Shown here: positions 3,001 through 51,491 of the stretch, in pieces
How positions within the stretch are numbered: the first letter of the stretch is position 1
Layout of the letters: every line of letters begins with the position of its first letter
Assembly: GCF_003367315.1 (NCBI RefSeq)
Contig: NZ_CP031415.1
Span: 1,362,001-1,426,000 of the forward strand
DNA: 64,000 nt
Direction of reading: 5' to 3'
DNA from: Saccharospirillum mangrovi
GTDB taxonomy: Bacteria; Pseudomonadota; Gammaproteobacteria; Pseudomonadales; Natronospirillaceae
Translations under genes and position numbers: made by a program
The notes under the pieces: model-generated
What the model was told of the DNA's origin: nothing
Seen by the model: only the letters and a program-made list of their open reading frames with translations
Database searches by the model: none

Positions 3001-3282
3001 CTGAACGGCAATCAGTTGAACGATTCTGCGGCCGATTCCGGCGCGGTGTACACCTATGTGCAGGACGATGATGGGCAGTGGCATTTTGAGTCGTACATCA
3101 AAGCCTCCAACACTTCCTGGGAGCAGGCGTTTGGCCTGGGGCTGTCGTTAAGTGGCGATGGCAACACCCTGGCGGTGGGTGCCTTCGGTGAAGATGGTAA
3201 TGCGACAGGCGTTTCTTCTGGCGTCGGCCCGGGGACACCGCTGCCAACTGCTGCGCAATCGGGCGCGGTTTACCTGTACTGA
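1..3282 (+). CDS. FG-GAP beta-propeller surface protein, 5' end missing
   Basis: The reading frame is open from base 1, so the true start and any signal peptide lie outside the window. The N-terminal part holds about three Cys-containing repeats, marked by VTGIQINC near bases 82, 352 and 604 (spacing 270 then 252). The paired Cys (QQC and INC) in each repeat suggests a disulfide. A middle region (about 900-1780) resembles the same part of the protein at 47904-51491. From about 1790 to the end there are seven FG-GAP-like repeats of the form FGRSVSLSDDGTVMAVGA, as expected for one seven-bladed integrin-type propeller. The protein ends GAVYLY. It is probably exported and surface-attached, like its lipoprotein paralogue. 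Substrate or partner is unknown. Family call is firm; function is not. Confidence 0.8.
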   Translation: MTGKPDLQQCVFVESGTQNQTVNVTTTNVTGIQINCTNRTFSIGGSVTGLSGVLGISLNDDENNIVTLTSDSDFTFSDLAANASYRLTITQMPTAQQCFFLDGDTKTESLTVPVTTTNVTGIQINCTNRTFSIRGSVTGLSGPMSINIGDTQVSVTDSTFTFPFLAANKTYTLEITGKPDLQQCVFVEGNAESRDIAVGMADVTGIQINCVDRTFSIHGSVSGLLRDLTISIANTDKTASLTTGDSTFSLSGLAPNTSYTLNTLSASATDDSTQACWFDNLHQASLAVPVGTTDVTGLEVDCNTYYPVKVVITGWEGGESGKVTLTWGPGASSGNEARSLSQNFTFSKRLRRGTPYTIGLADVPETLACELNGDHTSNEGGITASALVTIACSKKVTLFMTIQGLVAPTIITAQVNDQPDNAYTANNTFDLGVIKTGTSNTVTLFSDAVTDLPQTCKVGDDIIPPKPSDGLQLPFNAGVSTDQSINVHCEFDVSAAALTMVPSGIKTLEFSWPSDARFSYRLLERIDDPDPNSGDWTPIHPHALAGTGAEMNYRHEVPLYALTHRDYILETCYTDTAGKNHCQGSTELTTRGVEAQYNYLLGSIGYFKGEDATNAGNLFGRSVSLSDDGTVMAVGAYGFDRQLPYQENSGGVFIFRKTDGVWAQEGAVALVPNLPHGEAYDHVGMAVSLSGNGEYLAVGAPDEDGSGERVNPAHDNSDLDSGAVYIFHHENGDWVQQAYLKPPNKFSVADGSFSHRSGELYGLALSLDYEGSTLVVGKKRATYTAPVGENEDVELRGAGYLYTRSNNNWYFRTAITGLSGKKARVGHSVSISRNGRTIALGAPQAPNNNAIGRGAVQVHFYPNPVGAPAYLTDPTFIRSPDPTPEQGFFGGSVSLSDDGSVIAIGDPWSSRPGAGINPAQGTAFDKAGSVYIYRWHDGDGWQQEVHIKAEHPGKNDMFGTQVSLSNDGRRLAVSTGADFEYDGPPDATYEGSGEDSSAVGLNGNQLNDSAADSGAVYTYVQDDDGQWHFESYIKASNTSWEQAFGLGLSLSGDGNTLAVGAFGEDGNATGVSSGVGPGTPLPTAAQSGAVYLY

Positions 3283-3492: not shown

Positions 3493-6006
3493 TCAGCGGT
3501 TGGGGAAGTGAATATCGGCGCTTAATCCTTTTTGCCAGTTCGTACCATCGGTGGAAGACCAGACGTCGTTTTTGTAGTCGCTGTTGCCATAGCCGCCAAT
3601 CAGTACCAACCGTTCGTCGTTGCCGTCGTCGAAGGTCAGCAACTGGTGGCCCTGGCGCGGAGAGAAGCCGCCGGCCGGTGTGGTGACCAGAGTCCACTCA
3701 AAGCCGCTGTCGGAGACCCAGATGTCGGCGTTTTCTGCACCGTCATTGTCTGTGCCACCGAGTAGCCAGAGCTGGTCTTTGAAGGCGACGACCTGGTGTT
3801 CGCTGCGTGCGGTGAAGGCCAGCTCTTTTGTTTCGTCATTGTCATCCTTCGCGAAGGCGCGCGATTCCCAGTTGTTGCCGTCGTTGGCGACCCAGATATC
3901 CGCCACTACGCCGTCTTCGGTTTCACCCCCGAACAGCCAGGGTTGACCTTTCCAGACCACCACTTGATGGCCCTGGCGCGCGGTCAGGGTGAAATCGTTT
4001 TCGACGGTGGTTTCGTTGATCCAAGTGACGCCATCACGCGTGGACCACTCATCGCGGACCAGTGTTTGCACGGTGTTGCCTTCGTCATCTATAACGGTGG
4101 CGTAGCCGCCCACCAGCCAGAGCAGGCCCTTGAACACCACCAGTTGGTGGCCTGCGCGTGGCTCGAAACCTGGATCGTCGGTTTTCAGTTCCCAGTCGAT
4201 GCCGTTGCTGGAGGTCCAGACATCGTTCAGGTACTGGCCGGCTGCATCGTAACCGCCGACCAACCAGAGGGCGTTGTCGAAGACGATGACCTGGTGGCCA
4301 TCGCGGGCGGTAAAGGTGGTGTCCTGCTCGCTGATCTGCTGCGTCCACACCAGGCCGTCGGCCGACGACCAGACTTCGTTATTGGGCAGGCCATTGTTGC
4401 TGCCGCCGATCACCCAAAGCTGGCCATCGAAGGCGACCGCCTGATGTTGCTCGCGGGCGCCGAAGTCGGCATCGAGGGTTTGTTCCTGCCAGCTAACGCC
4501 ATCGGCCGAGGCCCAAACGTCGTCCTGAACGCTGCCGTCGTAACCGGCCAGCAACCAGAGCCGATCGTTGAATGCCACAAGCCGGTGGCCGTAGCGGCCG
4601 GAGAATTCAGCGAGCAGTTTTTCCTGGTGCCAGATTACGCCGTCGTCAGACCACCACAGCACGCTGTTGCCCACGCCGTTGTCACCGCTCACCAACCACA
4701 GCCGTTGCTTGCCGTCGTGGTTTCTGACCGCGACCTGATGGCTATAACGGGCAGAAAAATCGGCCTGGTTGGTTTCGAGTGTCCAGGTGATGCCGTTGGG
4801 TGACGACCAGATTTCATTGCTGGTGTCGGCACCGTCATCGTCGTCATCTTCGGCCAGGCCACTGAACAGCCAGAGCTTGTTGCCGGTGCTGCCGTCGTTA
4901 AACACCACCAGTTGGTGTTCAAGGCCGGGCAGGAAGTCGGCAATGTCGACGGTCGAGTCGCTGCTTTGCAGGTCGTTGGTGCGGTCGGTCCAGTTGTTGC
5001 CATCGGTCGATGAGTAGACGTCGCTGAACCGGTTGCCATCGACATCAACACCGCCAATCAACCAGAGTACGGGGTCTGCGGTGCCTTGCGGCGTGAAAAC
5101 AGCCACCTGATGGAAGGCTCGGTTGGAGAAGGTTGCATTGGCGTTGAGTTCGGTCCAGTCGATACCGTTTTTCGACGTCCAGACATCGTTTTCAACCGTG
5201 TCACCGTTGCCACCGCCGATCAGCAACAGGTTGTTTTGGAACACCACCAACTGGTGGCCGTGGCGCGCCGGTGGTGGCTTGGTGGAGTCGTGTTTTACCC
5301 AGCTCAGACCGTCGGCCGACGACCAGATGTCGGCCAGGTCGTTACCGTCGTTATCTCGACCGCCGACGATCCACAGTTGGTTATTGAAGGCTACGGCGTC
5401 GTGATCGTACCGGCCGGGAAACCGATGCGCGCTCAAGCCCGCTTTCACCTGGCGACCGCCAAAATTCAATTGGAAATAGCCGGGTTGTTGCAAGGTGGTG
5501 GCTGTGGTGTTCAGTAAGCTGCCGCTTCGGGCCAGCAGCGTTTGGCCGCCATCGCAACCGATGACTTGGTTGAAGTTGCAGTTCGGGTCGCTCGCGGCGG
5601 CGATTTCCACGCCATTCAGACCGGCCGACGGCAACAGCCGACTGCGGCTGGTGCCAACCCAGGCGCTGAGTGTGGCGTCGCGGTCGATCACTTCTACCGA
5701 AAAGCGGGCTGTGTCGGTGCGTTCACCCAGAGATTGCGTTGCCACGATATAGGCCTGACCGGCCGCCATTGCGGTGACTTCGCCGTTATCGTCCACGGTT
5801 GCTACTGCGGTGTTGGTGCTGCGAAAGTCGAGTGTGTCGTTGCCATTAATGGTGGGGTTGCGAAAGCGGTCGCCGACGACCAGCTGGGCAGTGCCTTCCT
5901 CTTCGAAACCAAGCTCGGGTGCGGTGCAACCGAATAAGGTGGTGAGTGATACAAACCAGAGTATGGATGCTGGTTTGGTGAACGGACGGATTAGTGATCG
6001 GATCAT
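3493..6006 (-). CDS. Kelch-repeat lipoprotein with Big2-like domain
   Basis: 837 residues. The N-terminus is a lipoprotein signal with lipobox LFGC (Cys27), so the mature protein should be membrane-anchored. Residues about 30-105 look like a bacterial Ig-like (Big2) domain, with the typical ATVDDNGEVTAMAAG stretch. A Cys-containing linker runs to about 190. The rest is 12 kelch-type repeats of 50-60 residues, each with a GHQLVVF strand, a W(L/V)(I/V)GG strand and a closing W(S/T)S.DG..W. Twelve repeats would fit two six-bladed propellers. The start ATG at 6006 has GAGG eight bases upstream. Kelch propellers usually bind protein or glycan; no catalytic residues were recognised. Probably an extracytoplasmic binding or adhesion protein. 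Confidence 0.8.
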   Translation of the reverse strand: MIRSLIRPFTKPASILWFVSLTTLFGCTAPELGFEEEGTAQLVVGDRFRNPTINGNDTLDFRSTNTAVATVDDNGEVTAMAAGQAYIVATQSLGERTDTARFSVEVIDRDATLSAWVGTSRSRLLPSAGLNGVEIAAASDPNCNFNQVIGCDGGQTLLARSGSLLNTTATTLQQPGYFQLNFGGRQVKAGLSAHRFPGRYDHDAVAFNNQLWIVGGRDNDGNDLADIWSSADGLSWVKHDSTKPPPARHGHQLVVFQNNLLLIGGGNGDTVENDVWTSKNGIDWTELNANATFSNRAFHQVAVFTPQGTADPVLWLIGGVDVDGNRFSDVYSSTDGNNWTDRTNDLQSSDSTVDIADFLPGLEHQLVVFNDGSTGNKLWLFSGLAEDDDDDGADTSNEIWSSPNGITWTLETNQADFSARYSHQVAVRNHDGKQRLWLVSGDNGVGNSVLWWSDDGVIWHQEKLLAEFSGRYGHRLVAFNDRLWLLAGYDGSVQDDVWASADGVSWQEQTLDADFGAREQHQAVAFDGQLWVIGGSNNGLPNNEVWSSADGLVWTQQISEQDTTFTARDGHQVIVFDNALWLVGGYDAAGQYLNDVWTSSNGIDWELKTDDPGFEPRAGHQLVVFKGLLWLVGGYATVIDDEGNTVQTLVRDEWSTRDGVTWINETTVENDFTLTARQGHQVVVWKGQPWLFGGETEDGVVADIWVANDGNNWESRAFAKDDNDETKELAFTARSEHQVVAFKDQLWLLGGTDNDGAENADIWVSDSGFEWTLVTTPAGGFSPRQGHQLLTFDDGNDERLVLIGGYGNSDYKNDVWSSTDGTNWQKGLSADIHFPNR

Positions 6007-8352: not shown

Positions 8353-9948
8353 TTAATTGGATGTCGGCTCCAATAAAAAGACGCCGCTGGCGCTATCGGC
8401 GACGCTGTTGTCGCCCGGCCCATTAACGACCTCGGCGTTAAAACCACCAACGAAATCCTGCCCATTGCTGCCGGTAAACATGCCGCCCATGGCGCCGGTC
8501 AGCCCGTAGGCATTGTTGGTGGAGCCGTCGGTGACACTACTACCCCACAAGTTGGCCTCAACAAATGCCCCATCGGCCTGACCGGCGAATCGCATAAACC
8601 ACGTATCGTGAGCGGAATCTCCATCCGGACTTTCAGCGTAAAAACCGATGCTGCCGTTCACATTCAACGAGTCGAAATTGACGGTCATCGACACTTGCGG
8701 ATTGCCTACTGCCAAATCCAACGGCAACGAAGCACTGAAGTTGTTATCGACATCACTTAACGTGAACTGACGGGTACCGGACAAGCCGGCCGTTGCCACC
8801 GGATCGGCCTCAACATAAAAGAAGGGCGTGTCGATTGTTGCGATGCCATCGGCGCTGTGTCCCTGTGCCGGGTTGGCCGCGTCCACATCCCATATTCCCC
8901 AATCCACGTGATAACCATTGCCCAGATCGTGACTCGCCAAAGGTGTCGCACTCATGCCAGCCGGGCTGTGAATGACTGCAGTCGGCAAGCCGGTTTCCGG
9001 GTCGGCACCGTCGTTGTATTGGGCGTAGAACGTCGATCCGTTGAGTTGCGCGCCATAGACATAGTTGAGCGGACTGGCGTCGGGCGTAAGCAGAAAACCA
9101 AACTGGCCGTCTTGGTTCAACGCCGCCTGTTGCTCAGCCGAGAGCAACGACGACGAGGCGCCGGGGCTGTCTGGCAAACTGTTCTCAACGGTATTGAACG
9201 ACGGTTGTTTGTCGGTTGTGGGAATCTCAATCAGATTGTCCGGGTCGCTGTCTGGTCCGGTAGCCAAGTTGGCATCGGCCAGGAAAGTTGAGCCAGACGA
9301 TTCGCTTTGAGCACCCGACTGGCTCTGTCTGTCTGGTGTTTGGGCACCGTTCAACACGGCCGGGGCGATGAGCGTGCCTAGCGGCGCCTGGCCGGGACTG
9401 ACCTCGGCAAAATTGAAATTGCCACCCAGACCCAGCGCTAGCGAACCTTGGGCGTTGCTGACCACAATGCCACCTTCATAGACCCCAACCGCCAGACGGT
9501 CGTTCGTCAAAACCGCTTCATACTGCGTGCCACGGATGCCAATGCTGGCGTTGGGCGTATCGAGCCGGTACGCCTCGCGGTTGCTTTTGCCCAAGCTGCC
9601 ACTGATGGTGCGCAACCCACCCTCAAGCAAATTCATCAGTACCTGTTCTTGTTGCGTGTCGCTGCTGCCGTGATAGGCATCGATGCGCAAGCGCGACTGT
9701 TCGCGCAGTGCCAACACCGCATTGTCGGTAAAGCGCAATTGCAACTGGCTGTTGGCCTCGGTGATCAGGGTATCGCCTGCAAAAATTTCCGCCCGGCGAT
9801 ACAGCACCCGGTACTCGTTGTTGGTATCCAGGGCATAAACATTGCCCGAGGCAATGACGACCTTGCCAACGCTGGCCCATAACGGCAGCGACAGAATCAT
9901 CAAACCCGAAGTGAATAGTATCCGAAGGAGTGGTTTCAGCAGAGTCAT
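8353..9948 (-). CDS. Secreted FecR-domain protein, paralogue 1
   Basis: 531 residues. A Sec signal peptide ends LPLWA-SVG, with no lipobox. A FecR domain follows at about residues 25-150, including GDTLITEANSQLQLRF and PNASIGIRGTQYEAV. An acidic, low-complexity linker leads to a C-terminal region rich in beta strands with VNFDSLNVNGSIGF and GGMFTGSNGQDFVGGF. This resembles the small barrel found at the end of TbpB-like and hemophilin-like cargo of Slam translocons. It is the most divergent of four paralogues in the window and stands apart from the other three across a small lipoprotein gene. There is no FecA receptor or FecI sigma factor nearby, so classical iron signalling is unlikely. Function unknown. 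Confidence 0.75.
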   Translation of the reverse strand: MTLLKPLLRILFTSGLMILSLPLWASVGKVVIASGNVYALDTNNEYRVLYRRAEIFAGDTLITEANSQLQLRFTDNAVLALREQSRLRIDAYHGSSDTQQEQVLMNLLEGGLRTISGSLGKSNREAYRLDTPNASIGIRGTQYEAVLTNDRLAVGVYEGGIVVSNAQGSLALGLGGNFNFAEVSPGQAPLGTLIAPAVLNGAQTPDRQSQSGAQSESSGSTFLADANLATGPDSDPDNLIEIPTTDKQPSFNTVENSLPDSPGASSSLLSAEQQAALNQDGQFGFLLTPDASPLNYVYGAQLNGSTFYAQYNDGADPETGLPTAVIHSPAGMSATPLASHDLGNGYHVDWGIWDVDAANPAQGHSADGIATIDTPFFYVEADPVATAGLSGTRQFTLSDVDNNFSASLPLDLAVGNPQVSMTVNFDSLNVNGSIGFYAESPDGDSAHDTWFMRFAGQADGAFVEANLWGSSVTDGSTNNAYGLTGAMGGMFTGSNGQDFVGGFNAEVVNGPGDNSVADSASGVFLLEPTSN

Positions 9949-10143: not shown

Positions 10144-10241
10144 TATTGACCGGTTGGGCAGGAAACTCGCGTTCCTGGTCCAGTACCAGTGGGAGGGAGA
10201 CAACCCACTAACGTGTGAAATATCTATTCGGAGTAAGAAAT

Positions 10242-10979
10242 ATGAAGTACCCAGTAGTGGCCGTAATGCTGACTGCCGTCGTATTACAGGGATGCCAAGT
10301 GGAAGAAGACCAAGGGCCGACAATCGATGCCACCGGGCATTGGACGATGACCAGCCAGGTGAATGACGAACGTTCAAACATCATGGTGGTGGATGACAAC
10401 CGCTTCCTTATTCTGGAAGACGACGACAATAACGAACTGGACATTAACTTCAGCACCGGAACCATGAATCAGTCGGTCACTCGAGCGTCGGGCCAACTGA
10501 CCAGCGATGACTCCATTTGGTGTGACATCAATTTAGGCGCCGACGAATTCGACTGCGCCGACATGGACGTTACGATATCGGTGGAAAGCGCCACTCGCCT
10601 TACCGGCGAAACCCAAGTTGGTGATTTCAACAACAGCATCGTTCTGGAACCGAATGCGACGTTGAATAAAGAAGTTGGCGTTGATGATCTGGTGGGTTAC
10701 TGGGTGTACCTCGGCACTGCGTCACTCAGTATTCAGGCCGACGGTACCTTCACCGGAACCGATGCCAATAGCGACCCGATCAGCGGTGAGTTTTTTGACA
10801 TTGGACCCAACGAATTCAAATTCACCGTGAACGCCAGCATTGGCGATGGCAAGCGAGCCGACATACCGGGTCTGGCGTATCTGGATGATGACGGCCGACT
10901 CGTCGCCGGTGCCTATCGATTGTTTGATAACGGTGACCATTCCATTTTGGTTGCCTTCTATGAGCATCCGGCGCCTTGA
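10242..10979 (+). CDS. Hypothetical lipoprotein
   Basis: 245 residues. The ATG at 10242 is preferred over the upstream GTG at 10215 because GGAG lies eight bases before it and it starts a clean lipoprotein signal (AVVLQGC, Cys18 as lipid acceptor). The mature protein is acidic and strand-rich, with two similar halves starting near GHWTMTSQV and VGYWVYLGT, as in lipocalin-like or copper-homeostasis-like small barrels. No known family was recognised. It sits between FecR paralogues 1 and 2 on the opposite strand and has its own terminator, so a link to them is only positional. Confidence 0.7.
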   Translation: MKYPVVAVMLTAVVLQGCQVEEDQGPTIDATGHWTMTSQVNDERSNIMVVDDNRFLILEDDDNNELDINFSTGTMNQSVTRASGQLTSDDSIWCDINLGADEFDCADMDVTISVESATRLTGETQVGDFNNSIVLEPNATLNKEVGVDDLVGYWVYLGTASLSIQADGTFTGTDANSDPISGEFFDIGPNEFKFTVNASIGDGKRADIPGLAYLDDDGRLVAGAYRLFDNGDHSILVAFYEHPAP

Positions 10980-11049: not shown

Positions 11050-12765
11050 TTAGTCCACTCCTATTTCTTGTCCGGAGTATTCTTCCATTACGAAAACCCC
11101 ATAAACTTCATCATTGTTGTCAGTATCTACAGTTTCCGCACTAAACCCACCAACAAAATCAATATTTTCGCTTTCTCCAGTAAAGACGCCATTAACGCTA
11201 CCGGCTACCTCATATATTTCTGGAATCTGAAGTTCGACCGTATAGGTGCTGCTATCGAGAAGAGATGCATTTAAAACACTTCCATTTACCTGACCCTCGA
11301 AATCAAGAGACCAGGTTTCTACGAAATCGCTGTCACCAAATGTTAGGTTGCCATTGGCCACACCCGAATTAAAAGATGCTTCTAAATAGCCAGAGACATT
11401 ACTTCCAAAACTACTAAAACCCGTGCTTTCCAACATGCCCACATCTGGCCCTAAAGAAAAGAATCTAGTTCCACGTAGTTCTGCTTGTGTCGGCTCAGCT
11501 GTAATGTAGTAAAACGTTTCAATAACTTGCCCTGAGCCAAAGCCTGAATCGGATCCAGCTAAGGCCGTTGTAGGCTGTTCAACGTTGGCGTTCCATTCTT
11601 CCCAATATATATCCCCAAGTTCACCATAACTCCCATTGTCATCTGCGTAGCTACTGTCATCAGGCCTGATAACCAAGTTTGGTGAAACTAAATCCTGCTC
11701 TTGTTCATCTAAATTTTGCGAGCTAAAGGCGATAAAAAATGGGGAGTTGGTATCTTGTAAATTTTCAGTTATGCCTTGGTATCCAAATACTGGCCCACCA
11801 GGGAACATAAGTTCACCATCAGTCCCTGTAGTCGAAGGTGAAAACACTAAAATGACAGCGGTAGAATTATTATTAATTGCGGTTACTTCATCTTCCGTTA
11901 ATTCAACTACGCCTGGCCCGCTCTCACTCTCATCTTGTCGATTCAGCTCTTCCTCCAGCGCATCCTCTAACGCACTGAAATTAAAATCATCGGCAGTGAA
12001 ACCGCCAACGTCGTTCGCAACCGAAGCTGTATCGTTAGGGTTGTTATCGGGCGATTGATTGGCGGCGTCGTCATTTAAATCGCCATCGCTTTCGTCGCTG
12101 CCGTCATCCGATTCTTCTTCGTCGGATTCCTCGCCTTCTTCATCCGTTTGCGGCGTGTTTGGCACATTCAAATTCGCCGGCGGGTTCAGCAAGCCCTGGG
12201 GCAAATTGCCGGCCTGAACTTGTGCGAATACGAATTCGCTGTCGAGGCCGAGGTTTAATGAACCCTGGTCGTTGGTGAGCACGATGCCGCCTTCGTATAC
12301 GCCCACGCTCAAGGTGTTCGATTCAAATACGGCCTCGTAATGGGTACCGCGAATGCCGATGCTGGCATTGGGGGTGCGCACCTGGTAGGCGTCGCGTTCG
12401 GATTTGCCAAAGCTGCCGGAAATGGTGCGGAAACCGCCGCCGAGCAAGTCCATTAATACGCGTTCGGGTTGGGTGTCGCTGGCGCCGTGGTATTCGCTGA
12501 TGCGTAATTGGGAGTCGGCGCGTAAGGCAAGAATGGCGTTGTCTTCGAAGCGCAATTGCAACCGGCCGTCGGTGCCGGTGATCAGGGTGTCGCCTTCAAA
12601 CACATCGGCGCGTCGTTGAAGCGGTCGGCGTTCGTTCTGGGCGTTGACGGCGTAAACATCGCCTGCGGCGATGACGACTTTGCCAGCGGCCGCATAAAGC
12701 GGGAGGGGTAAAGCCAACAACAAACCAACAAGGAAAAGCTGCAACTTCTGACTTATGCAATCCAT
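11050..12765 (-). CDS. Secreted FecR-domain protein, paralogue 2
   Basis: 571 residues. The signal peptide ends LPLYA-AAGK, with no lipobox. The FecR domain (about 25-150) has EGDTLITG, LQLRFEDNAILALRA and TPNASIGIRGTHYEAV. A very acidic Ser/Asp/Glu linker (about 205-250) is followed by a variable region and a C-terminal barrel-like domain with NGVFTGESENIDFVGGFSAE. Bases 11050 to about 11960, which code the C-terminal half, are clearly richer in A+T than the N-terminal half, suggesting that the C-terminal domain has been exchanged. AGGAT precedes the ATG. Likely an exported protein handled by the TPR/barrel protein at 16616-18031. Confidence 0.75.
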   Translation of the reverse strand: MDCISQKLQLFLVGLLLALPLPLYAAAGKVVIAAGDVYAVNAQNERRPLQRRADVFEGDTLITGTDGRLQLRFEDNAILALRADSQLRISEYHGASDTQPERVLMDLLGGGFRTISGSFGKSERDAYQVRTPNASIGIRGTHYEAVFESNTLSVGVYEGGIVLTNDQGSLNLGLDSEFVFAQVQAGNLPQGLLNPPANLNVPNTPQTDEEGEESDEEESDDGSDESDGDLNDDAANQSPDNNPNDTASVANDVGGFTADDFNFSALEDALEEELNRQDESESGPGVVELTEDEVTAINNNSTAVILVFSPSTTGTDGELMFPGGPVFGYQGITENLQDTNSPFFIAFSSQNLDEQEQDLVSPNLVIRPDDSSYADDNGSYGELGDIYWEEWNANVEQPTTALAGSDSGFGSGQVIETFYYITAEPTQAELRGTRFFSLGPDVGMLESTGFSSFGSNVSGYLEASFNSGVANGNLTFGDSDFVETWSLDFEGQVNGSVLNASLLDSSTYTVELQIPEIYEVAGSVNGVFTGESENIDFVGGFSAETVDTDNNDEVYGVFVMEEYSGQEIGVD

Positions 12766-13073
12766 GGAGCATCCTGCTTAATTGAACTCAATCAGGCGAG
12801 TCTGAGTGTCCCTGTTGTTCGTCGCTATACAGACAATGCCTCAGTGCCGACGACGTCCTTGCCGCTCGGTGGTGTGGCGAATAGCGTGCCTGACTTCAGC
12901 CCTTTTCCACTGAAAGTTGACTGAAATTTGATCAAGCCTACGCCAGTGTACGACAGAATTCTGTTGGTCTTTGTAAGCAGAAACGACCGGATTTTCCGAC
13001 GGGGTCAAAATGCCGCCGGGAAATCCGGTGGGAAACATTGCGAGGCGTCAAGGGTTCGACGCCATCGATAACC
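12766..13073. other. Intergenic gap between FecR paralogues 2 and 3
   Basis: 308 bases without a convincing gene. A GGCGTC / GACGCC hairpin (13044-13063) lies just past the stop of paralogue 3 and may end its transcript. The rest should contain the promoter of paralogue 2. No clear -35/-10 pair was found. Confidence 0.5.
13044..13063 (-). terminator. Hairpin after FecR paralogue 3
   Basis: A 6-bp stem GGCGTC / GACGCC with an eight-base loop, ten bases past the stop. It lacks a T run, so intrinsic termination is doubtful. Confidence 0.3.
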
Positions 13074-14801
13074 TTAATTAACGCCTTCGCCTTCCGTCAG
13101 CAGGTAGACGCCGTAGAGTTCGTCGGTACTCACCGTCTGTGCATCCTGCGTGGTCAGGGGGTCGGCAATGGATGCATTCACGCCGCCGACAAATACCAGA
13201 TCGTCATCCGGGCCGGAGAAAATACCGTAGACGCCGCCGGTCAATGCGTACGAGTTCTGACTCTGGTCCACCAGATACGCCGACTCACCGCCAATCAAAC
13301 CCACCATTTGCGTGCCAATGATTACTCCTTCGTATTGAATGGACCATTGGTTTGAACTGGGCTCAATAAATGTCAGGTTGCCCTGTGCGGACAGGTCGCT
13401 GAAATTAACGTTGAGATCGCCCGAAAAACTGGTGCCCGTCGGCAGGTTTGAACTGAAACAACCGGACGAACATTCACCGCTGCTGAACGAGCGTTCGCCG
13501 CTCAATTGTGCCGTGGTCGAATCCGCCAGCACGTAATAAAACGGCTGGTCGATGGTGCCGGTTTGTGCGCCGGATTCGGTGTTGTGGTAGGTCTGCGCAG
13601 AGTGATTGTCCGAGGCGTTCCAGATGCCCCATTCCACAACGTCGCCATTGCTGAGCGTGAATTTTTCCAGCGTGGTCTGTGTCAGTCCTTCGGTTTTTAC
13701 GATGCCGACTACGGTGTCTGTTGCCGGGTCAACGTCGTCCAGCGGTAGCAGAACTTCTTCGGCTTCGTCGCTGAATATTCCGTAGAAGGTATTCCCGCCG
13801 GAGACGGCCGCAGCGTAACTAAATAACACGTTCAGCGTGGCAAACGAGTCGTCGTCAGAGGTGTTGGCGCTGTCGTTGAATGAGCCGGCTGCAAACACCA
13901 GAAAACCGGTCTGGTCGCTGCTCGCTAACGCCTGTTCTTCGGCGTCGGTTAAACGGGGGTCGCCGCGCAGTTGTTCGGCGCTGTCGTTCAACACATTTTC
14001 CAGGGTATTGATGGTGAATTCATCGGGGTTGGTGACGAGCGCATCGGGTTCGGGGTTGGTCGGACTGTCGGTGGATTCAACATCCGCATCGCTGAGTTCG
14101 CCGTCGTCGTCTTCGGTGTTTTCCGAGCCGTCGGTTTCGTCGTTATTTTCGCTGTCACTGTTGCCGTTGTTTTGCGGGCGCAAGCGTGTGCTCGGAATGT
14201 TCAAAATATCCGGCGGGTTCAACAGGCCGCGTGGGGTGTTGTTAGCGGCTACTTCGGCAAACAAAAAGTTGCTGTCGCGGCCCAGATTCAATTCACCGAA
14301 ATCGTTGCGAACCGAAACGCCGCCGTCGTACACACCGACGGTCAACGTATCGGATTGAAACACTGCTTCGTAATGCGTACCGCGAATGCCGATGCTGGCA
14401 TTGGGCGTACGCACCTGATACGCATCGCGCTCCGACTTGCCGAAGTGGCCGGAAATGGTTCGGAAACCACCGCTGACCAATTCCATCAACACACGCTCAC
14501 CGCGTTCTTCGGTGGCGCCGTGGTATTCGCTGATGCGCAGTTCTGAATTGGCGCGCAGTGCAAGAATGGCGTTGTCTTCAAAACGCAATTGCAATTGGCC
14601 GTCGTCGCCGGTGATCAACGTATCGCCTTCAAACACATCAGCACGTCGTTGCAGTTCCCGACGTTGGTTTTGCGCATCAACGGCAAACGCATCGCCTGCG
14701 GCAATGACTACTTTGCCTGCGGCAGCCAAGAGCGTGGAGGGTAGGAGTAAACAAAGAACAATAGCGAGACATGGCCCGGTAACGGGCAGCAATCGTTTCA
14801 T
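13074..14801 (-). CDS. Secreted FecR-domain protein, paralogue 3
   Basis: 575 residues. The signal peptide ends STLLA-AAGK and AAGGAT precedes the ATG. The FecR domain is near-identical in plan to paralogues 2 and 4 (LQLRFEDNAILALRANSELRISEYHGA, read as two shorter blocks, then PNASIGIRGTHYEAV). An Asn/Asp/Glu-rich linker is followed by a strand-rich C-terminal domain containing a Cys pair (GECSSGCF) and the closing GIFSGPDDDLVFVGGV. The 'G.F.G....F.GG' ending recalls the GxFxGPxAxELGG signature of Slam-dependent barrels. The gene lies 103 bases downstream of paralogue 4 on the same strand and could be transcribed with it. Confidence 0.75.
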   Translation of the reverse strand: MKRLLPVTGPCLAIVLCLLLPSTLLAAAGKVVIAAGDAFAVDAQNQRRELQRRADVFEGDTLITGDDGQLQLRFEDNAILALRANSELRISEYHGATEERGERVLMELVSGGFRTISGHFGKSERDAYQVRTPNASIGIRGTHYEAVFQSDTLTVGVYDGGVSVRNDFGELNLGRDSNFLFAEVAANNTPRGLLNPPDILNIPSTRLRPQNNGNSDSENNDETDGSENTEDDDGELSDADVESTDSPTNPEPDALVTNPDEFTINTLENVLNDSAEQLRGDPRLTDAEEQALASSDQTGFLVFAAGSFNDSANTSDDDSFATLNVLFSYAAAVSGGNTFYGIFSDEAEEVLLPLDDVDPATDTVVGIVKTEGLTQTTLEKFTLSNGDVVEWGIWNASDNHSAQTYHNTESGAQTGTIDQPFYYVLADSTTAQLSGERSFSSGECSSGCFSSNLPTGTSFSGDLNVNFSDLSAQGNLTFIEPSSNQWSIQYEGVIIGTQMVGLIGGESAYLVDQSQNSYALTGGVYGIFSGPDDDLVFVGGVNASIADPLTTQDAQTVSTDELYGVYLLTEGEGVN

Positions 14802-14904
14802 ACAACATCCTTCACAAAACGATGGTTAATTTTAAGAGTTAAGTTTTAGGTTGCGCATCCCTAGCGCGGGTGGGGTGACAAAGCCAGAAATTAAGAGTTG
14901 GGAA

Positions 14905-16605
14905 TTATTCTATCTCCGAAGGAATTCCATTCGTTTGATCCATGGTGAAAATGCCATAGGCTGCGGACGATCCGTCGCCATTTTCAGCGCTGAATCCGCC
15001 TACAAAATCTATGGCACCACTGGTGCCGGTAAAAATTCCACTGACATTTCCAGACAGGGAATCTGAACCACCAATTTGACTGCTGAAAGTATCGGTGTTG
15101 CCGCCGCCCCAATTGATCGATACAGAATCGACGAGCGACGCGTTTAGCACCGTTCCATTGATGTCGCCTTCAAAGCCCATTTCCCAGACTCCTGAATCGG
15201 ATTGGAACTGTAGAAATCCATCTGCATCAAGGTTCTGGAAATCGACCTTTAATCCGCCAGCCGCTTCTGAAATTCCACCCATACCATCGACAGCAAAGCA
15301 GCCATCACACATTGAAAAATTCATCGTGCCAGAGAGTTTGGCCTGTGTGGGTTCGGCCTGGATAAAAAAGAATTGCGATGCGCTACCGCTACCGGAATCG
15401 AAATCCGACGTGCTGCCAACCTCGATATCAACGGATTCGTCCCAATGTTCCCAATTCACTGATTCGGCTAACCCACTGCCGATTTCATCGGCACCGGACG
15501 TTCCGGCAAGTCCATCCGGCCGCAACACCAGATTGGGCAGATAAAAACTGCCGTCTAATTCAGTGCCGTTTTGGGTTTCATAAGCGACATAAAGGTTGCT
15601 GATGTTTTGCCCACCAACCTGAGCGCTGTAGGCAATGATCGGGCCTTGGCCCGATGGCGATTGCCCCGGCGCAAACACCAGAATTCCAGTTACGGCGACG
15701 TCACTTTTCAGCGCATTAATCTCACTGGTCGTTAACGCCACCACGCTGTTGGGATCCTGCTGATCGATTTTTTCATCCAGGTCGTCTTCGATGGCGCTGA
15801 AATTAAAATCGTCGTCGCTGATGTCGTCCGCGTCAGGTATCGGCAGGTTGGTGTTGTCCGGGTTATTGCTTGGCGGCGGGTTGTCCGACGGGTCGTTTAT
15901 GTCGGGCAGCGGCGCTTCTTCGCTGCCATCGGATTCATCGTCGCTGGCTTCGTCGGATTCTTCGCCATCGTCTGCTGGTGGCGCGTCAGCTTGTGGCGTG
16001 TTCGGTACGTTCAAGTTGGCTGGCGGGTTCAGTAAACCTTGCGGTAGGGCGCCCGATTGAACCTGGGCGTAGAGGAAGTCGCTGTCTAAACCAAGGTTAA
16101 TGGTGCCCAACTCGTTGGTGACCGAAATGCCGCCTTCGTATACGCCCACACTCAGGGTGTTGGAATCAAACACCGCTTCGTAGTGCGTGCCGCGAATACC
16201 GATGCTGGCGGTGGGCGTGCGGACTTGATACGCATCGCGATCCGTTTTGCCGAAACTGCCGCTGATGGTACGGAAGCCGCCGGCCAGTAAATCCATCAAC
16301 ACGCGCTCGCCCTGGGCACCGTCGGCGCCGTGGTATTCGCTAATACGCAGTTGTGAATTGGCGCGTAACGCCAGAATGGCGTTGTCTTCGAAGCGCAGTT
16401 GCAGTGTGCCGTCGGCGCCGGTGATCAGGGTGTCGCCTTCAAACACGTCGGAACGACGTTGCAGCAGCCGGCGTTGTTCCTGGGCGTTTACCGCAAAGAC
16501 GTCACCGGTGGCGATGACTACTTTGCCGGCGGCCGCCCACAACGGTGCCGGTGTCAGCAGCACCAACAGCAGCAATAAAAGGTGTGGGCGTAATAATCCT
16601 TTCAT
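14905..16605 (-). CDS. Secreted FecR-domain protein, paralogue 4
   Basis: 566 residues. The signal peptide ends APLWA-AAGK; AGGAG lies before the ATG. The FecR domain covers about 25-150, then an acidic and Pro-rich linker, then a strand-rich domain with a Cys pair (MCDGCF) and the terminal VSGIFTGTSGAIDFVGGF. It starts 10 bases after the stop of the TPR/outer-membrane-barrel gene, so the two form one operon. That is the best evidence that this FecR family is cargo or partner of the barrel protein. There is no iron-uptake receptor or ECF sigma gene nearby. Confidence 0.78.
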   Translation of the reverse strand: MKGLLRPHLLLLLLVLLTPAPLWAAAGKVVIATGDVFAVNAQEQRRLLQRRSDVFEGDTLITGADGTLQLRFEDNAILALRANSQLRISEYHGADGAQGERVLMDLLAGGFRTISGSFGKTDRDAYQVRTPTASIGIRGTHYEAVFDSNTLSVGVYEGGISVTNELGTINLGLDSDFLYAQVQSGALPQGLLNPPANLNVPNTPQADAPPADDGEESDEASDDESDGSEEAPLPDINDPSDNPPPSNNPDNTNLPIPDADDISDDDFNFSAIEDDLDEKIDQQDPNSVVALTTSEINALKSDVAVTGILVFAPGQSPSGQGPIIAYSAQVGGQNISNLYVAYETQNGTELDGSFYLPNLVLRPDGLAGTSGADEIGSGLAESVNWEHWDESVDIEVGSTSDFDSGSGSASQFFFIQAEPTQAKLSGTMNFSMCDGCFAVDGMGGISEAAGGLKVDFQNLDADGFLQFQSDSGVWEMGFEGDINGTVLNASLVDSVSINWGGGNTDTFSSQIGGSDSLSGNVSGIFTGTSGAIDFVGGFSAENGDGSSAAYGIFTMDQTNGIPSEIE

Positions 16606-16615
16606 GACACGACTC

Positions 16616-18031
16616 CTAGAACGTCAGCGTGACTGATTGATTGATCACCAACCGGTCCCGCTCATAGGCATTGATGTTCGAATCCAGCCATTCAAACCGA
16701 CTGCCAGTGCGGGTTTGTAACCAGGATGCCGGTTGCCAGCTCAGCCCTATGTCGGCGGTGATGAGTTGGTCTTTGCGCACCTTAGTTTGGTTGTTGCTGT
16801 TGTTTTGCAAAAACAGCAGGTCGTCGTCCTGGTAGGTGCGCAGGTCGTGACGGAAGGCTACGTCGGTGGTCCATTTGCCAGATAACTGCCAGCCCAGGCT
16901 GTAGCGGTTGCTGATGCCGTTCCATTCCAGATGGCCGTCGTTGTTGCCGCCCCGACGGAAACGCACGAATTGGCTGTCGAAGCGATGGCGGCGATTGTTT
17001 TCAGCCGCAGTAAACAGAACGCCAATGGCGTCGGTGCTGCTGTCGGAAGCGTCGTCGCTCTGGGCAAAACCCATATTGAGCTGGGCCGCCAGTCCGCCTT
17101 CCAACGACGCGAATAACGGCGTCGTGGCCTGGCCGCTTAAGGCCGCCGAGAACTGATAGGCTTCGCCGCCGAGCAGGCTTTGGCTCAGGTTGGTCGATAT
17201 CTGCGCACGCGATTTACGCGGCAAAGCGCGTTGCAGGCGGTATTGGCCGGTGATTCGGGTTTGGTTGAAAGAATCGTCTTCCAGGTACTGCGTGGCCTGG
17301 CCGAGGAAGCCGAAAACGTGGCCGGTTTTTAAGCTGGTCGGTTGCACCAGACGGGCGCCAAAACGGTACTGGGTGTAGGCGCTTTCGATGGCCAGCGACT
17401 CGTCACTCAAGTCGGTCAGGCCGAGCAGGTTCGGATCGAGCTGCCCATCCAGATTGCCGCCGCCATTGATGTTGGTGTCGTAGCCGCCTTCAACGCCAGC
17501 GAACAGATTGAACTGACGGTCACGGGCGCGTTCGATGGCGGTGATGCGATCCAGAAACGCCTCGATGTTGGTGCGCACCTGCGGCGGCGGATTGGTCTCC
17601 AGAACGCGTTCAAATTCGGTTCGTGCCCGCACCAGGTTGTTGTTGGCGTAATAGGCCCGCGCCAGATCGAGCCGGGCGCGGTGCTGTTCCGGTTGCATGA
17701 TCAGCACCCGTTCGAGCGCAAAAATGGCTTCGCGGGTTTCGCCGTCGTGCAGCAGCAACTGGGCGTAGAAGAAGTCGAAACGGGGCGTGCCTTCGAAGCG
17801 ATCCAGCAGCTCCGGTGCCATGATGCGCGCTGGCTCCCAATCACCGGCACGAATCATGCTGATAAACTCTTCGAGCACGGGGCCGTTAACATCCTGGTCC
17901 AGTGCGACAACTGGACCATTTGAATTGGGTGTGGATTGAGATTCGGCCATGGCCGAAAGCGGCAGGGAAACAACCAGGGTGACGCTCCAGGCAAGGGCAG
18001 GGCGTCGGCCAAAAAAGGAAGAGAGGGCCAT
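16616..18031 (-). CDS. TPR plus outer-membrane barrel protein, Slam/T11SS-like
   Basis: 471 residues from the ATG at 18031; a TTG-started frame to 18094 lacks a signal at its very end. The signal peptide ends LSAMA-ESQ. TPR helices span about 50-165, including HRARLDLARAYYANNNL and NPPPQVRTNIEAFLDRI. From about 172 on, alternating strands begin with FAGVEGGYDTNIN and end LVINQSVTLTF, with the terminal Phe of outer-membrane barrels. A soluble TPR domain followed by a barrel starting at a 'YDTNIN'-type motif is the plan of Slam proteins (DUF560, type XI secretion), which move proteins with small C-terminal barrels to the cell surface or outside. Alternatives are a PgaA-like export pore. It is first in an operon with FecR paralogue 4. 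Confidence 0.68.
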   Translation of the reverse strand: MALSSFFGRRPALAWSVTLVVSLPLSAMAESQSTPNSNGPVVALDQDVNGPVLEEFISMIRAGDWEPARIMAPELLDRFEGTPRFDFFYAQLLLHDGETREAIFALERVLIMQPEQHRARLDLARAYYANNNLVRARTEFERVLETNPPPQVRTNIEAFLDRITAIERARDRQFNLFAGVEGGYDTNINGGGNLDGQLDPNLLGLTDLSDESLAIESAYTQYRFGARLVQPTSLKTGHVFGFLGQATQYLEDDSFNQTRITGQYRLQRALPRKSRAQISTNLSQSLLGGEAYQFSAALSGQATTPLFASLEGGLAAQLNMGFAQSDDASDSSTDAIGVLFTAAENNRRHRFDSQFVRFRRGGNNDGHLEWNGISNRYSLGWQLSGKWTTDVAFRHDLRTYQDDDLLFLQNNSNNQTKVRKDQLITADIGLSWQPASWLQTRTGSRFEWLDSNINAYERDRLVINQSVTLTF

Positions 18032-18305: not shown

Positions 18306-19961
18306 ATGGGTTTGGACTTATCAGATTCGCTGAATAAGCACGTTTTACTGGTCGACGATTTTGCCAACGTGCGTAAGTCGATTAAGAGCATGATTACCTC
18401 CATCGGGCTGCGCAACGTCTTTGAAGCGGCACATGGCAACGAAGCAACCCGCATTGTGCGGGAACAAAAGCTCGATATCGTCATGTGCGACTACAACCTG
18501 GAAAAGGGCAAAAACGGCTCGCAGCTGCTCGAAGAGTGGCGCAAGCGCGGTTGGCTGTCGCACGAAACCTTCTTTGTGATGATCACCGCAGAAACCTCGC
18601 GCGACCGCGTTATGGGCACGCTCGAATTCCAGCCGGATGACTACCTTGCCAAACCCTTTGCTCTGGACACGCTCAAGCAGCGACTGGTGCGTTGGATGGA
18701 CCGCCAGGAAGAGTTGCGGCCAGTCAATGCCGCTCTCGACCGTGGCAACTGGGAAGAAGTGGCTAAGATGTGCCGCGACCTGATCAAGAACAAGAGCCGC
18801 TACCGGCCCTGGGCGCAGCGTAAATACCACCAGGCGTTGCTGAAAACCGACCGTCTGGACGATGCCACCAAGTTCCTCGGCATGGTGTTGAAAGAACGCG
18901 AATACCCCTGGGCACGGCTGGAAGTGCACCGCATTCAGGTGGCGCGCAAGGAATTGCCAAAAGCCGAAAAAGGCTTGCGCACGCTGATCAGCAAAGAACC
19001 CAACCTGATCGATGCTTACGACCTGCTGGCGCAGGTGCAGAACATGCTCAAGCAACCTGAGCATGTGCAGCACACGCTGGAGCAGGCGTTGGAGCGCTCC
19101 CCGCTGAACATTCCGCGTCAGCGCAGCCTGGCGAAAGTCGCCACCGGTAATGGCGACCTGGCGACGGCTACCCGCGCTTATAAAGAAGTGGTCAATCTGT
19201 CCGAAGGCACCATGCATGACTCGCCCGACGTCTACAAAGACGCCCTGCGCGCCACCCGGACCCGCATGGCGCTGGAAACCAACGAAGCCCAGCGGCGTCG
19301 GTTGCGGCTCGATGCGATGACCTACTTAAAGAAGTTGATGAAGAACTTCCCGGACGATGCCGATGGCGATTTGGTGTCGCGTGCATACCGGGCCTTTTTG
19401 AACGATCCGCAGGACGTTCGTGCCCGCGCCGACGGCTTTATTAAAGAGCTGGCGCAAAAGGCGTCGCGCAAGATGGAAGAGTTGTCGCAGGACAGCGCCG
19501 TGGATATCGCCGAGATCATTTATGAAAAGGGCGAGAACGAACTGGCCGACGAATTGATCGACAAACTGCGCGATTATCACCGTTCGTCCAAGGCTTTCCT
19601 CGATCGCCTGAATCAGGTTCAGACCGAGCCAAAGACCACCGCCGAGATGCGCGAAAAGGCGCACCACCTGAACATTCAGGGCATCGAGCACTACAAGAAA
19701 AAACGCTACTCCGAAGCGGTGGGCCAGTTCGAAGAAGCGCTGGAACATTCGCCACGCCACCCCGGCATTATTCTCAACCTGGTGCAGTCGAGCCTGTTGG
19801 AAGTGGGTACGGGTACGCCGTCGAAACAGCGCCTGGATCAGTGCGTGGAGTTGGTCAAACGGATCAGTTATTTGCCGCGTGACCACTATCAGTACGAACG
19901 CTATCTGACCATTCGCACCAAACTCAATGATTTGACCGACGGCGCTGTTGTCGCGCAATGA
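18306..19961 (+). CDS. Response regulator with TPR output
   Basis: 551 residues. A receiver domain occupies about residues 10-130, with acidic pair VDD near 17-18, phospho-acceptor Asp62 in MCDYNLE and Lys116 in YLAKPF. No DNA-binding domain follows; instead there are tetratricopeptide-like helices at about 140-320 and again at 440-520, which normally mediate protein contacts. AAAGGAG lies before the ATG. The next gene is a small histidine kinase overlapping by four bases, so the two should form a two-component pair. The output is likely a protein interaction. The gene is divergent from the FecR/barrel operon, which makes a regulatory link possible but unproved. Confidence 0.85.
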   Translation: MGLDLSDSLNKHVLLVDDFANVRKSIKSMITSIGLRNVFEAAHGNEATRIVREQKLDIVMCDYNLEKGKNGSQLLEEWRKRGWLSHETFFVMITAETSRDRVMGTLEFQPDDYLAKPFALDTLKQRLVRWMDRQEELRPVNAALDRGNWEEVAKMCRDLIKNKSRYRPWAQRKYHQALLKTDRLDDATKFLGMVLKEREYPWARLEVHRIQVARKELPKAEKGLRTLISKEPNLIDAYDLLAQVQNMLKQPEHVQHTLEQALERSPLNIPRQRSLAKVATGNGDLATATRAYKEVVNLSEGTMHDSPDVYKDALRATRTRMALETNEAQRRRLRLDAMTYLKKLMKNFPDDADGDLVSRAYRAFLNDPQDVRARADGFIKELAQKASRKMEELSQDSAVDIAEIIYEKGENELADELIDKLRDYHRSSKAFLDRLNQVQTEPKTTAEMREKAHHLNIQGIEHYKKKRYSEAVGQFEEALEHSPRHPGIILNLVQSSLLEVGTGTPSKQRLDQCVELVKRISYLPRDHYQYERYLTIRTKLNDLTDGAVVAQ

Positions 19962-19972
19962 CGAGGCAAACG

Positions 19973-20665
19973 ATGAGCAAGCTCGAACTCGATATGAACA
20001 CCATCATGGCCTCGACCGTCCATGATGTGAAAAACGCCCTCAGCCTGATCGACGATCAGATTCGCGACGTCATGCAGGAAGTGGCGCAGGTGAGCCCGGA
20101 AGGTGCGGCCTATCTGAATCGCATCCGGCTGGAAACCGGCCGCATCAACAACGATCTGGTGCACATGCTGGGTTTGTATCGCATGCACCAGAACACCTTC
20201 CATCCGAGTTTCGACGACGTGCCGGTGGAAGAGGTGGTGCAGGACGCCAGCTCGCGTTACACCGAAAGCCTGACGGCTCTGGGCATTGAATTGAACATCC
20301 AGATGGATGACCCGGACTGCGTCTGGTACATGGACCCGGCGCTGATCGAAAGCGTGCTGGCGAATATCCTGACCAACTGCATTCGCTATACCCGCGACCG
20401 GGTGGATGTGTTTGTCAGCGAACGCGACGGCGGTTTGTCGATTCGGGTTGTCGACAACGGCGATGGTTACCCGGAAAAATTGCTCAATTTTATGGGCACC
20501 GAAGAAGAGCAGGGTAGCGTGAATTTCCAGACCGGCAGCACCGGCCTGGGCTTGTTCTTCTGCCATCAGATTGCCGGCCTGCACCGCAACGGTGATCGCC
20601 AGGGCACCATTCAATTGACCAACGATCCCAAAGGCGGCGCCAGCTTCGAACTCTGGCTGCCCTGA
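19973..20665 (+). CDS. Small cytosolic sensor histidine kinase
   Basis: 230 residues from ATG 19973, chosen because GAGG lies six bases before it; an ATG at 19958 overlaps the previous stop as ATGA. The H box is STVHDVKNALS (His17). The HATPase domain shows the N box (ANILTNCIRYT), G1 (DNGDGYP) and G2 (GSTGLGLFF). There is no membrane segment and no sensory domain, so the input must come from another protein, perhaps through the TPRs of the partner response regulator encoded just upstream. It is translationally coupled to that gene. Confidence 0.85.
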   Translation: MSKLELDMNTIMASTVHDVKNALSLIDDQIRDVMQEVAQVSPEGAAYLNRIRLETGRINNDLVHMLGLYRMHQNTFHPSFDDVPVEEVVQDASSRYTESLTALGIELNIQMDDPDCVWYMDPALIESVLANILTNCIRYTRDRVDVFVSERDGGLSIRVVDNGDGYPEKLLNFMGTEEEQGSVNFQTGSTGLGLFFCHQIAGLHRNGDRQGTIQLTNDPKGGASFELWLP

Positions 20666-50900: not shown

Positions 50901-51491
50901 GAATGAGCACAGTTGTGTAGTCGGTGCATTGGAAATTTTCAGAGTATGAGATGTATTCGCTGCCAGTTCTGAAAACGTGAAATCCAAGTCGCTCGGGGCG
51001 GTTACGGTTTGGCTGGTTTCACCAATGCTGACAGTCAGGCTACCTGATAAATCCACCACACTGCCGCTGATCGAAACTGGATCAGGAGTGACGACGACAT
51101 CCGAACAAGTCACGTTTAAATCGGTGACGTTTTCAGCGCCCAAGGTGCCGGATTTCTGCTTCGAGTCGTTGTCAAAAAGGCATTGTTGGCCGGACGGTGG
51201 CGTAACAATGCTGAGGCTGTATTGCGTGTTTTCTTCCAGTTGGGTCTGGAATTCAAACGTACCGTCACCTGTGTGGGTGAGGCTTTCTTCGCTGTTATGG
51301 AGATTGAGCGTTAATTGGCCGGTCGATCCGGAAATGGTTCCGCCCAGGGTGAAGGTGTTGGTCTGCGGTGGTGCCGGTGGCGGCGATTTTTTCGGCGGGT
51401 CATCGGGGCTGCTACAGCCGGCCAGGACTAATGCTAAAGAAAACAACAGACTGGGGAGCCAGAAACGGCTCCCGATATTTGATTGAGGCAT
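47904..51491 (-). CDS. FG-GAP beta-propeller lipoprotein
   Basis: 1195 residues from ATG 51491 (GGAG eight bases upstream). Lipobox LVLAGC gives lipidated Cys26; a Pro/Lys-rich spacer follows. Residues about 45-440 hold five Cys-paired repeats of about 80 residues of the type 'SISGSV..LSG.L...I', each ending with VTCSD or a variant. A linker region (about 440-760) has further strand-rich units. The last 430 residues have seven FG-GAP repeats (FGRSVSLSDDGTVMAVGA and so on), a complete integrin-like propeller. It closely resembles the truncated protein at 1-3282, especially at the C-terminus, also at DNA level. Likely a surface adhesin or recognition protein. It interrupts the liv gene group. 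Confidence 0.82.
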   Translation of the reverse strand: MPQSNIGSRFWLPSLLFSLALVLAGCSSPDDPPKKSPPPAPPQTNTFTLGGTISGSTGQLTLNLHNSEESLTHTGDGTFEFQTQLEENTQYSLSIVTPPSGQQCLFDNDSKQKSGTLGAENVTDLNVTCSDVVVTPDPVSISGSVVDLSGSLTVSIGETSQTVTAPSDLDFTFSELAANTSHTLKISNAPTTQLCSFDNNNENERIVDVTTVDVTGIQITCVDRTFSISGGVVNLSGTLKLALTDNAGNELRNAEIKSTRPSQGFTFQGITANTSYILKITEQPTAQQCLFDNNSEEKPGTLGAESVTGIQISCTDLTVSISGSVSGLTGLMDVNIKDSNNTPHGSEEVNSDNPNTDFTFDELPVNANYTLSIASNPGTQHCEFDTSKTDTQTVSVETENVSGIAVTCSDIPTYTVTANISGWVGTDTGQLKLSDGSAQGQTLDVSGNDAFTFQTPLLRGTPYTLTIGSPLPESMTTCALSNNSTNTTTGIQANVTVTIACSEKPKLSIDIQGLVSPTIITAKVNDKTIKYTADNTLKLSYMETDTSYTVTLFSGLRDTADTATTLPQTCKVGEDTIPSESSEGLQLQFDAGVSTATDRVIEVRCVFDFSPAELTMTPWGIKNLVFRWSSDARFTYRLSELINDPDPNSGDWTPIHPHTLAGTGAEMIYRHEVPLYALAHRDYVLQTCYTDTNEKNHCQYSAILTTRGAEDQDQYNYLLGSIGYFKGGDTTNAGNLFGRSVSLSDDGTVMAVGAFGYDVGSDPNDNTGGVFIFRKTDGVWAQEGSVLVPNIAEAQDHVGMAVSLSGNGEYLAVGTPDEDGSGSWVNPTVTNGTTKSGAVYVFHHNTDNNTWTRQAYLKATSPETSSFFGLSLSFDEDGSTLAVGARLQGNDDRGAVYIYYRQNDSWLTSGTQLLPTGMSDGARFGMSVSLSNAGQTLAIGAPHDFSNAPATSGRGSVYVYFRNNKSTHDWGTPKVIKSSEVSQDATGFFGSSVSVSGNGAVIAVGDSLSSRPGTGVNPVDSGNNLPNSGSAYVFRWTQEQGWVQQAHIKAENADANDNFGRTISLSNDGMRLAVGTGADYAYDEPPSTTTKSGEDSNAIGLNGNRNDNSLSDPGAVYTYVLSNSDGWVFESYIKASNTAFEQAFGEALSLSGDGNTLAVGAFGEDSSGYGIAWNIGTGAGDSNTNAPQAGAVYLY

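Follow-up and report, generated by a model that had tools for sequence, protein, structure and literature searches.

The window analysed here, a stretch of 64,000 nucleotides from Saccharospirillum mangrovi (contig NZ_CP031415.1, positions 1,362,001 to 1,426,000), encodes a TPR and outer-membrane-barrel protein (16616-18031) and four secreted FecR-domain proteins. The barrel protein is, by profile comparison, a homologue of the type 11 (Slam/DUF560) translocons, and the locus very probably comprises a translocon with its cargo. The same kind of evidence makes the start of the cargo FecR domain (~70 residues) a homologue of the module by which giant, type 1-secreted adhesins of the LapA type are retained on the cell. 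The model that we favour, and consider probable, is a type 11-like system in which the cargo is held by this N-terminal retention-like domain in place of a lipid. The architecture, the homologies and the conserved linkage of the locus are direct observations, and the pairing of translocon and FecR genes recurs in many proteobacteria. The original prediction had read the FecR domain as an N-terminal module on Slam-type cargo and not as an anti-sigma regulator, and this interpretation is supported by the barrel homology, by the signal peptides and by the lack of FecI or FecA among the 26 window proteins to which all our domain scans of the window refer. What it had not proposed is an anchor role: the FecR domain now resembles an anchor more closely than a passenger on display.

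The translocon candidate and its pairing with FecR genes

The open reading frames (ORFs) confirmed the predicted gene order on the reverse strand, with the barrel gene ten bases upstream of a FecR gene, two paralogues following on the same strand and a fourth at 8353-9948 (Table 1). AlphaFold2 modelling, which covered the barrel protein and one of the four FecR cargo (14905-16605, cargo 1), gave the former seven helices and 14 strands at a predicted local distance difference test score (pLDDT) of 89.9. TPR matches are present, that to TPR_Slam below its cut-off (22.3 vs 35.2 bits). Relatives were collected as the best 80 of 291 stretches matching the barrel protein (set 1, the named loci) and as 33 further related loci (set 2), with about 10 genomes common to both sets. 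The closest set-1 relative is Saccharospirillum sp. MSK14-1 (82% identity), and within its own genome, a single contig of 3.69 Mb, the barrel protein matches only itself.

For profile comparisons we aligned the window protein (first row) with 76 of the 79 long barrel frames from set 1 (alignment A4, 77 sequences). PF04575, the SlipAM/DUF560 model, matches 32 of these at E<=0.01, the window protein not included; TPR_Slam is found in 20 of the 77 and a generic porin model in 45. Compared profile to profile with 11 SlipAM proteins (L070 and L068 not included), the A4 barrel aligns over 287 columns at E 2.7e-29, and single SlipAM proteins match it at E 1.7e-7 or better in five cases out of six, the sixth giving 0.02. 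Seven homologues in related genomes score over the curated PF04575 cut-off, five of them with an adjoining FecR gene. The DUF560 match that had been predicted is therefore borne out for the family profile, with no match to PgaA or BcsC, and not for the window protein alone, which stays below PF04575. A quick tree, sampled by similarity to the window barrel protein and meant as a sketch only (L184 omitted), places most FecR-linked proteins in one part (72/81 rows there; support 89, under the 95 mark) and most SlipAM proteins in the other (21/24 rows). Row L185 is probably a wrong frame, as its very long branch suggests; it was read from the strand opposite to that of the match listed. L189 and L186 have long branches too.

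In set 1, where the FecR gene had to lie directly downstream on the same strand with an estimated start codon, 67 of the 80 barrel genes have such a neighbour at a median gap of 14 bases, which places the pairing beyond chance. The other 13 loci comprise two contig ends, one locus with a FecR gene upstream only (L124), one with an adjacent frame outside the start rule (L099), and nine with none. Under the looser distance rule of set 2 a FecR gene is adjacent in 25 of the 33 loci. The predicted neighbourhood of FecR and barrel genes thus holds in both sets and does not extend to the SlipAM genes scoring >80 bits, of which one in 13 has a FecR gene within the surveyed flanks of 1.5 kb.

Cargo architecture and C-terminal barrel modules

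All four cargo exceed the Pfam cut-off for FecR (PF04773; 48.8-54.7 bits vs 24), and they account for every FecR match in the genome. Most of the predicted common architecture is seen in each of them, namely, by eye, a Sec-type signal without lipobox and the end motif 'G.F.G....FVGG', together with the FecR domain. The acidic linker is pronounced in three (21-24 D/E and 0-2 K/R in 75 residues) and weak in cargo 4, encoded at 8353-9948 (10 D/E, 2 K/R). By a simple pattern, a lipobox is lacking in 72 of the 73 set-1 cargo as well.

The C-terminal domain is alignable in all four window cargo, and its predicted fold, an eight-stranded barrel of the TbpB/HphA kind, was recovered in the model of cargo 1. 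The mean pLDDT of this model is 73, with most of the FecR part confident, residues 203-263 disordered and the middle weak; residues 427-558 form eight strands with 10-residue mean pLDDT of 82-94, apart from one loop at 58. The first eight Foldseek rows for cargo 1 include NHBA (three entries, best E 5.0e-5), TbpB (3.3e-4), HphA (2.7e-3) and haemophilin (4.4e-3), just three rows being at E<=0.001. NHBA is a Slam-type cargo.

Two cargo alignments, each including the four window proteins, were built with 57 (A5, 61 sequences) and 39 (A6, 43 sequences) of the 73 set-1 cargo. The A6 profile gave 13 matches to PDB sequences, comprising seven transferrin-binding proteins (best E 1.4e-6), the antifreeze adhesin chain 5ix9 (8.3e-5, at profile positions 31-83), three NHBA chains (best 0.012) and two matches at chance level. 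A profile of the C-terminal module from the 46 of 61 cargo with a usable C-terminus matches a set of 16 TbpB_B_D sequences (L204 and L207-L219 not included) at E 1.1e-5, compared with 0.32 for the reversed profile and 0.24 for the best of 30 column shuffles; the 11 nearest sequences alone give 1.1e-4, and 0.025 when reversed.

A hidden Markov model (HMM) of the module finds it in 54 of the 73 set-1 cargo, and 13 of the 19 without it run off the contig end. The number of copies per cargo varies from one to seven, with at least two in 13 cargo (seven in L094, a protein of 2346 amino acids, six in L145, four in L107, three in several); from these 13 just L146 and L147 had contributed rows to the HMM. 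Among 2822 frames scanned, the module occurs in five beyond the cargo, all in loci where a FecR frame adjoins the translocon gene. In three long cargo the linker after the FecR domain is EP-rich (L107) or acidic (L097, L113). In L105 (9255-13387) the FecR part and the barrel modules are split over consecutive frames that overlap or adjoin, perhaps owing to a frameshift in the draft genome. Multi-lobe cargo are not confined to the FecR-linked branch, since tandem TbpB_B_D frames (ten copies in G091:C60:8418-19380, with open frames of 396-1770 amino acids) occur in a genome that also has a SlipAM protein. TbpB is a two-lobe protein. The cargo described here resemble TbpB, NHBA and haemophilin in the C-terminal barrel and in including multi-lobe proteins, and differ in having one to seven lobes and a FecR domain where the lipid anchor would be.

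The four window paralogues share a mean identity of 69% in the FecR part, 24% in the handle and 33% in the barrel. Since the FecR part is kept while handle and barrel vary, the paralogues probably display different binding surfaces.

Compared with the known type 11 systems (TXISS/T11SS, type 11 secretion systems; Slam, NilB, DUF560/PF04575), the locus shares the TPR plus 14-stranded barrel protein and the neighbouring cargo with a C-terminal eight-stranded barrel of the TbpB/NHBA/HphA kind. It differs in that its proteins stand mostly apart from SlipAM in the quick tree with its support of 89, under 95, in that the cargo carry an N-terminal FecR/retention-like domain and no lipobox, and in that no TonB receptor or haem gene was found among the window proteins scanned.

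The FecR domain as a possible anchor and the competing readings

Aligned profile to profile, 69 cargo FecR domains match seven LapA retention modules (7 of 10 loci over the cut-off; L224, L229 and L230 not included) at E 1.2e-11 over 69 collinear columns with 26% identity, compared with 0.46 for the reversed profile. Foldseek relates the domain to 5ix9, a 'cell surface anchoring domain', at E 5.6e-3 over 74 columns (target-normalised template modelling score, TMt, 0.83; root-mean-square deviation, rmsd, 2.1), and a single cargo sequence finds the same entry weakly (E 0.02, next match 0.43). The retention_LapA model (NF033682) matches 38 of the 61 A5 cargo at E<=0.001. E. coli FecR, used as a single sequence, finds PupR, not 5ix9, and gives no retention-model match. 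In a second sample of translocons, the FecR domain is fused N-terminally to the TPR in 6 of 35, and since a domain standing before the translocon TPR is expected at a periplasmic site, the FecR domain probably acts in the periplasm. Taken together, the retention homology, the 5ix9 matches, the absence of a lipobox, the TPR fusions and the conservation of the FecR part lead us to propose, tentatively, that the cargo FecR domain is a periplasmic anchor.

In the mechanism that we envisage, a single outer-membrane protein from the type 11 (Slam/DUF560) superfamily would serve as translocon for four cargo of its own. To judge from their signals, the cargo would pass the inner membrane via Sec and be cut by signal peptidase I. 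By analogy with the TbpB, NHBA and HphA systems, the TPR/barrel protein would recognise the C-terminal eight-stranded barrel of the cargo and move it outside; the acidic linker would thread the translocon pore, and the FecR domain, folding in the periplasm and thereby unable to pass, may hold the cargo on the cell, standing in for the lipid anchor of classical Slam cargo. Unfolded TbpB is described in PMC9090332 as crossing Slam1 proteoliposomes, and the main text of PMC12282271 gives TbpB, HphA and haemophilin as T11SS cargo.

The resemblance to LapA-type retention modules (NF033682; 5ix9), known from type 1-secreted giant adhesins, lies in the N-terminal place and the 69 homologous columns, and some FecR cargo are likewise giant and repetitive. 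The differences are the signal peptide and another exit through the outer membrane, the absence of a LapG gene from the window genome, and the continuation of the cargo domain as FecR (PF04773) past the homologous part. According to the LapA literature, LapG cleavage adjoins the LapA-type retention module; the window genome has no match to the LapG protease (PF06035), and LapG-dependent release was rejected on this ground.

Several further observations, like this missing protease, count against the favoured model. The window cargo score 28.4-34.3 bits against NF033682, under the curated cut-off of 50, and NF033682 matches reach about the first half of the model. Matches to the retention model occur in 70 of 185 genomes of the class, 10 of them over the cut-off, and many other frames score alike. 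The fusion of FecR to the translocon is found in 1 of 81 set-1 translocons, and that gene also belongs to the six mentioned above. The window barrel protein is under the PF04575 threshold and nothing else in its genome matches that model; the reversed barrel profile still reaches E 0.0017 against SlipAM, as barrels align somewhat without homology. Of 61 cargo, a single one matches the Pfam TbpB_B_D model at E<=0.05. In nine of the 80 set-1 loci sequence continues beyond the barrel gene yet there is no FecR gene, and no substitute cargo was recognised in these nine. Six of them (L123, L136, L137, L140, L141, L156) have, as the next forward-strand frame of at least 130 amino acids, an aminotransferase-like gene (by eye) at a distance of 0.6-1.1 kb; L144 shows a protease-like gene and L152 a cut barrel frame, and L120 has none. 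Finally, 6 of 18 weaker SlipAM genes also have a FecR gene nearby, so that, with the single case among the 13 stronger ones, the FecR pairing is not exclusive to this branch.

The same translocon and cargo-barrel evidence would fit a type 11-like pair in which the FecR domain is exported as the displayed or ligand-binding part, with the protein released or held by another contact. The main text of PMC12282271 labels the N-terminal domain in predicted classical cargo a putative effector, and 44 of 61 cargo weakly match the Leptospira surface adhesin Lsa33. The latter match is unspecific, however, as the anti-sigma FecR of E. coli gives the same, and the FecR part is the most conserved region among the paralogues, unlike an exposed effector. 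Its homology to a periplasmic retention module and its occurrence N-terminal to the TPR in some translocons also argue against display, which we regard as rather unlikely.

The fusions suggest another role, in which the cargo FecR domain would pair with a FecR domain on the translocon side (fused to it, or on a small upstream protein) and bring the cargo to the pore without lasting anchorage. Besides the six FecR-TPR-barrel proteins, a separate FecR protein of 267 amino acids without a barrel module, whose gene immediately precedes that of the translocon in L089 (7019-7822), fits such docking. Against it, 29 of the 35 translocons, the window's included, and 80 of the 81 in set 1 have no FecR domain of their own, and the window genome has no FecR protein beyond the four cargo, and we consider docking improbable. 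In L169 a SlipAM gene is likewise preceded by a frame similar to the L089 FecR protein.

A role of the barrel protein in polysaccharide export, as a pore of BcsC/PgaA type with periplasmic or wall-bound FecR proteins as its partners, is very improbable. The layout of TPR plus barrel is common to both classes, and the Foldseek search against PDB, which counts further against the type 11 assignment, ranks BcsC first (E 4.3e-9) and PelBC sixth, with no Slam structure among the 50 matches listed. The BcsC fit is nevertheless poor (query-normalised score, TMq, 0.48; rmsd 9.9), the model has 14 strands, and the A4 barrel gives no profile match to E. coli PgaA and BcsC (E 0.09-0.3, for single sequences and not families), compared with 2.7e-29 for SlipAM. 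No glycosyltransferase or polysaccharide synthase was found among the window proteins scanned. We therefore rejected the polysaccharide pore on the profile evidence, despite the leading place of BcsC in the structure search.

The least credible reading, that of classical FecR anti-sigma regulators, shares with the cargo the PF04773 match and a Foldseek match to PupR (E 0.025), and was rejected because of a signal peptide (by eye the sole hydrophobic segment) where the cytoplasmic anti-sigma domain is expected, a long linker and a barrel, no sigma factor seen nearby, and the failure of the cargo FecR profile to match E. coli FecR (E 0.21, a weak test with a single sequence). FecI- or FecA-like partners were not seen in the 26 window proteins, the other ORFs being unscanned and the genome not searched for extracytoplasmic function (ECF) sigma or TonB receptor families.

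Returning to the anchored type 11 cargo, a FecR-type cargo of such a system is probably new. A full-text literature search, with most subscription papers outside its reach, gave no title or abstract start tying FecR to DUF560, Slam or T11SS; some of the papers contain both 'slam' and 'FecR', though their titles point to other subjects. A term count finds no FecR in the main texts of PMC12282271 and PMC8406197 (supplements outside the search). PMC8406197 gives nine of ten DUF560 clusters as lacking a characterised protein and PMC12282271 limits verified T11SS cargo to cluster 1. The broader proposal, a widespread type 11 branch with a LapA-homologous N-terminal anchor displaying one to seven TbpB-like lobes per molecule, is an even more far-reaching one that we put forward as possible, somewhat short of probable; if it is true, type 1 and type 11 secretion, though unrelated, have an anchoring fold in common. 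With loci of this type, environmental beta- and gammaproteobacteria have a cargo family that is recognisable by sequence and encoded next to its translocon. The locus type also offers a testable answer to how lipid-free type 11 cargo may stay on the cell, and it ties FecR domains to adhesin retention modules.

Locus layout and neighbouring genes

The features of the locus are collected in Table 1.

Table 1. Features of the translocon and FecR cargo locus (window coordinates; aa, amino acids)
Feature	Coordinates	Strand	Remarks
Type 11-like (Slam/DUF560-related) outer-membrane translocon candidate, 471 aa	16616..18031	-	Signal region, TPR and 14-stranded barrel
TPR region of translocon candidate, residues 50-170	17522..17884	-	Seven helices in model
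14-stranded barrel of translocon candidate, residues 173-470	16622..17515	-	Model and SlipAM profile match
FecR cargo 1, 566 aa	14905..16605	-	Ten bases downstream of translocon gene; modelled
FecR/retention-like N-terminal domain, cargo 1, residues 25-191	16033..16533	-	Residues ~22-91 match retention modules
Acidic disordered linker, cargo 1, residues 196-268	15802..16020	-	pLDDT <50 for 203-263
Handle-like region with WxxW motif, cargo 1, residues ~290-420	15346..15738	-	Low to middling confidence
C-terminal 8-stranded barrel, cargo 1, residues 427-558	14932..15327	-	TbpB/NHBA-like
FecR cargo 2, 575 aa	13074..14801	-	ORF and FecR match
FecR cargo 3, 571 aa	11050..12765	-	ORF and FecR match
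FecR cargo 4, 531 aa	8353..9948	-	Outside the run of four genes; weak C-terminal TbpB_B_D match, E 0.17
Gene separating cargo 3 from cargo 4	10215..10979	+	ORF

The small product of the forward-strand gene between cargo 3 and cargo 4 matches nothing in Pfam at E 1 and, by eye, carries LQGC, which resembles a lipobox. Also on the forward strand, and transcribed away from the translocon gene, are genes for a TPR response regulator (18306-19961) and a histidine-kinase-like ATPase (19958-20665). Relatives of this pair are found around the translocon gene in eight set-1 loci (Saccharospirillum, Reinekea, Natronospirillum), and because they flank the translocon gene there too, the pair may regulate it. 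A scan that we did not use as evidence gave two promoter-like sites, compared with a shuffle mean of 6.5, and 20 terminator-like sites, compared with 14. Plasmid origin was discarded, as a plasmid collection gave no match to the barrel protein. Elsewhere in the window three large proteins are encoded at 19-3282 (+), 3493-6006 (-) and 47904-51575 (-), two with FG-GAP repeats and one with kelch repeats.

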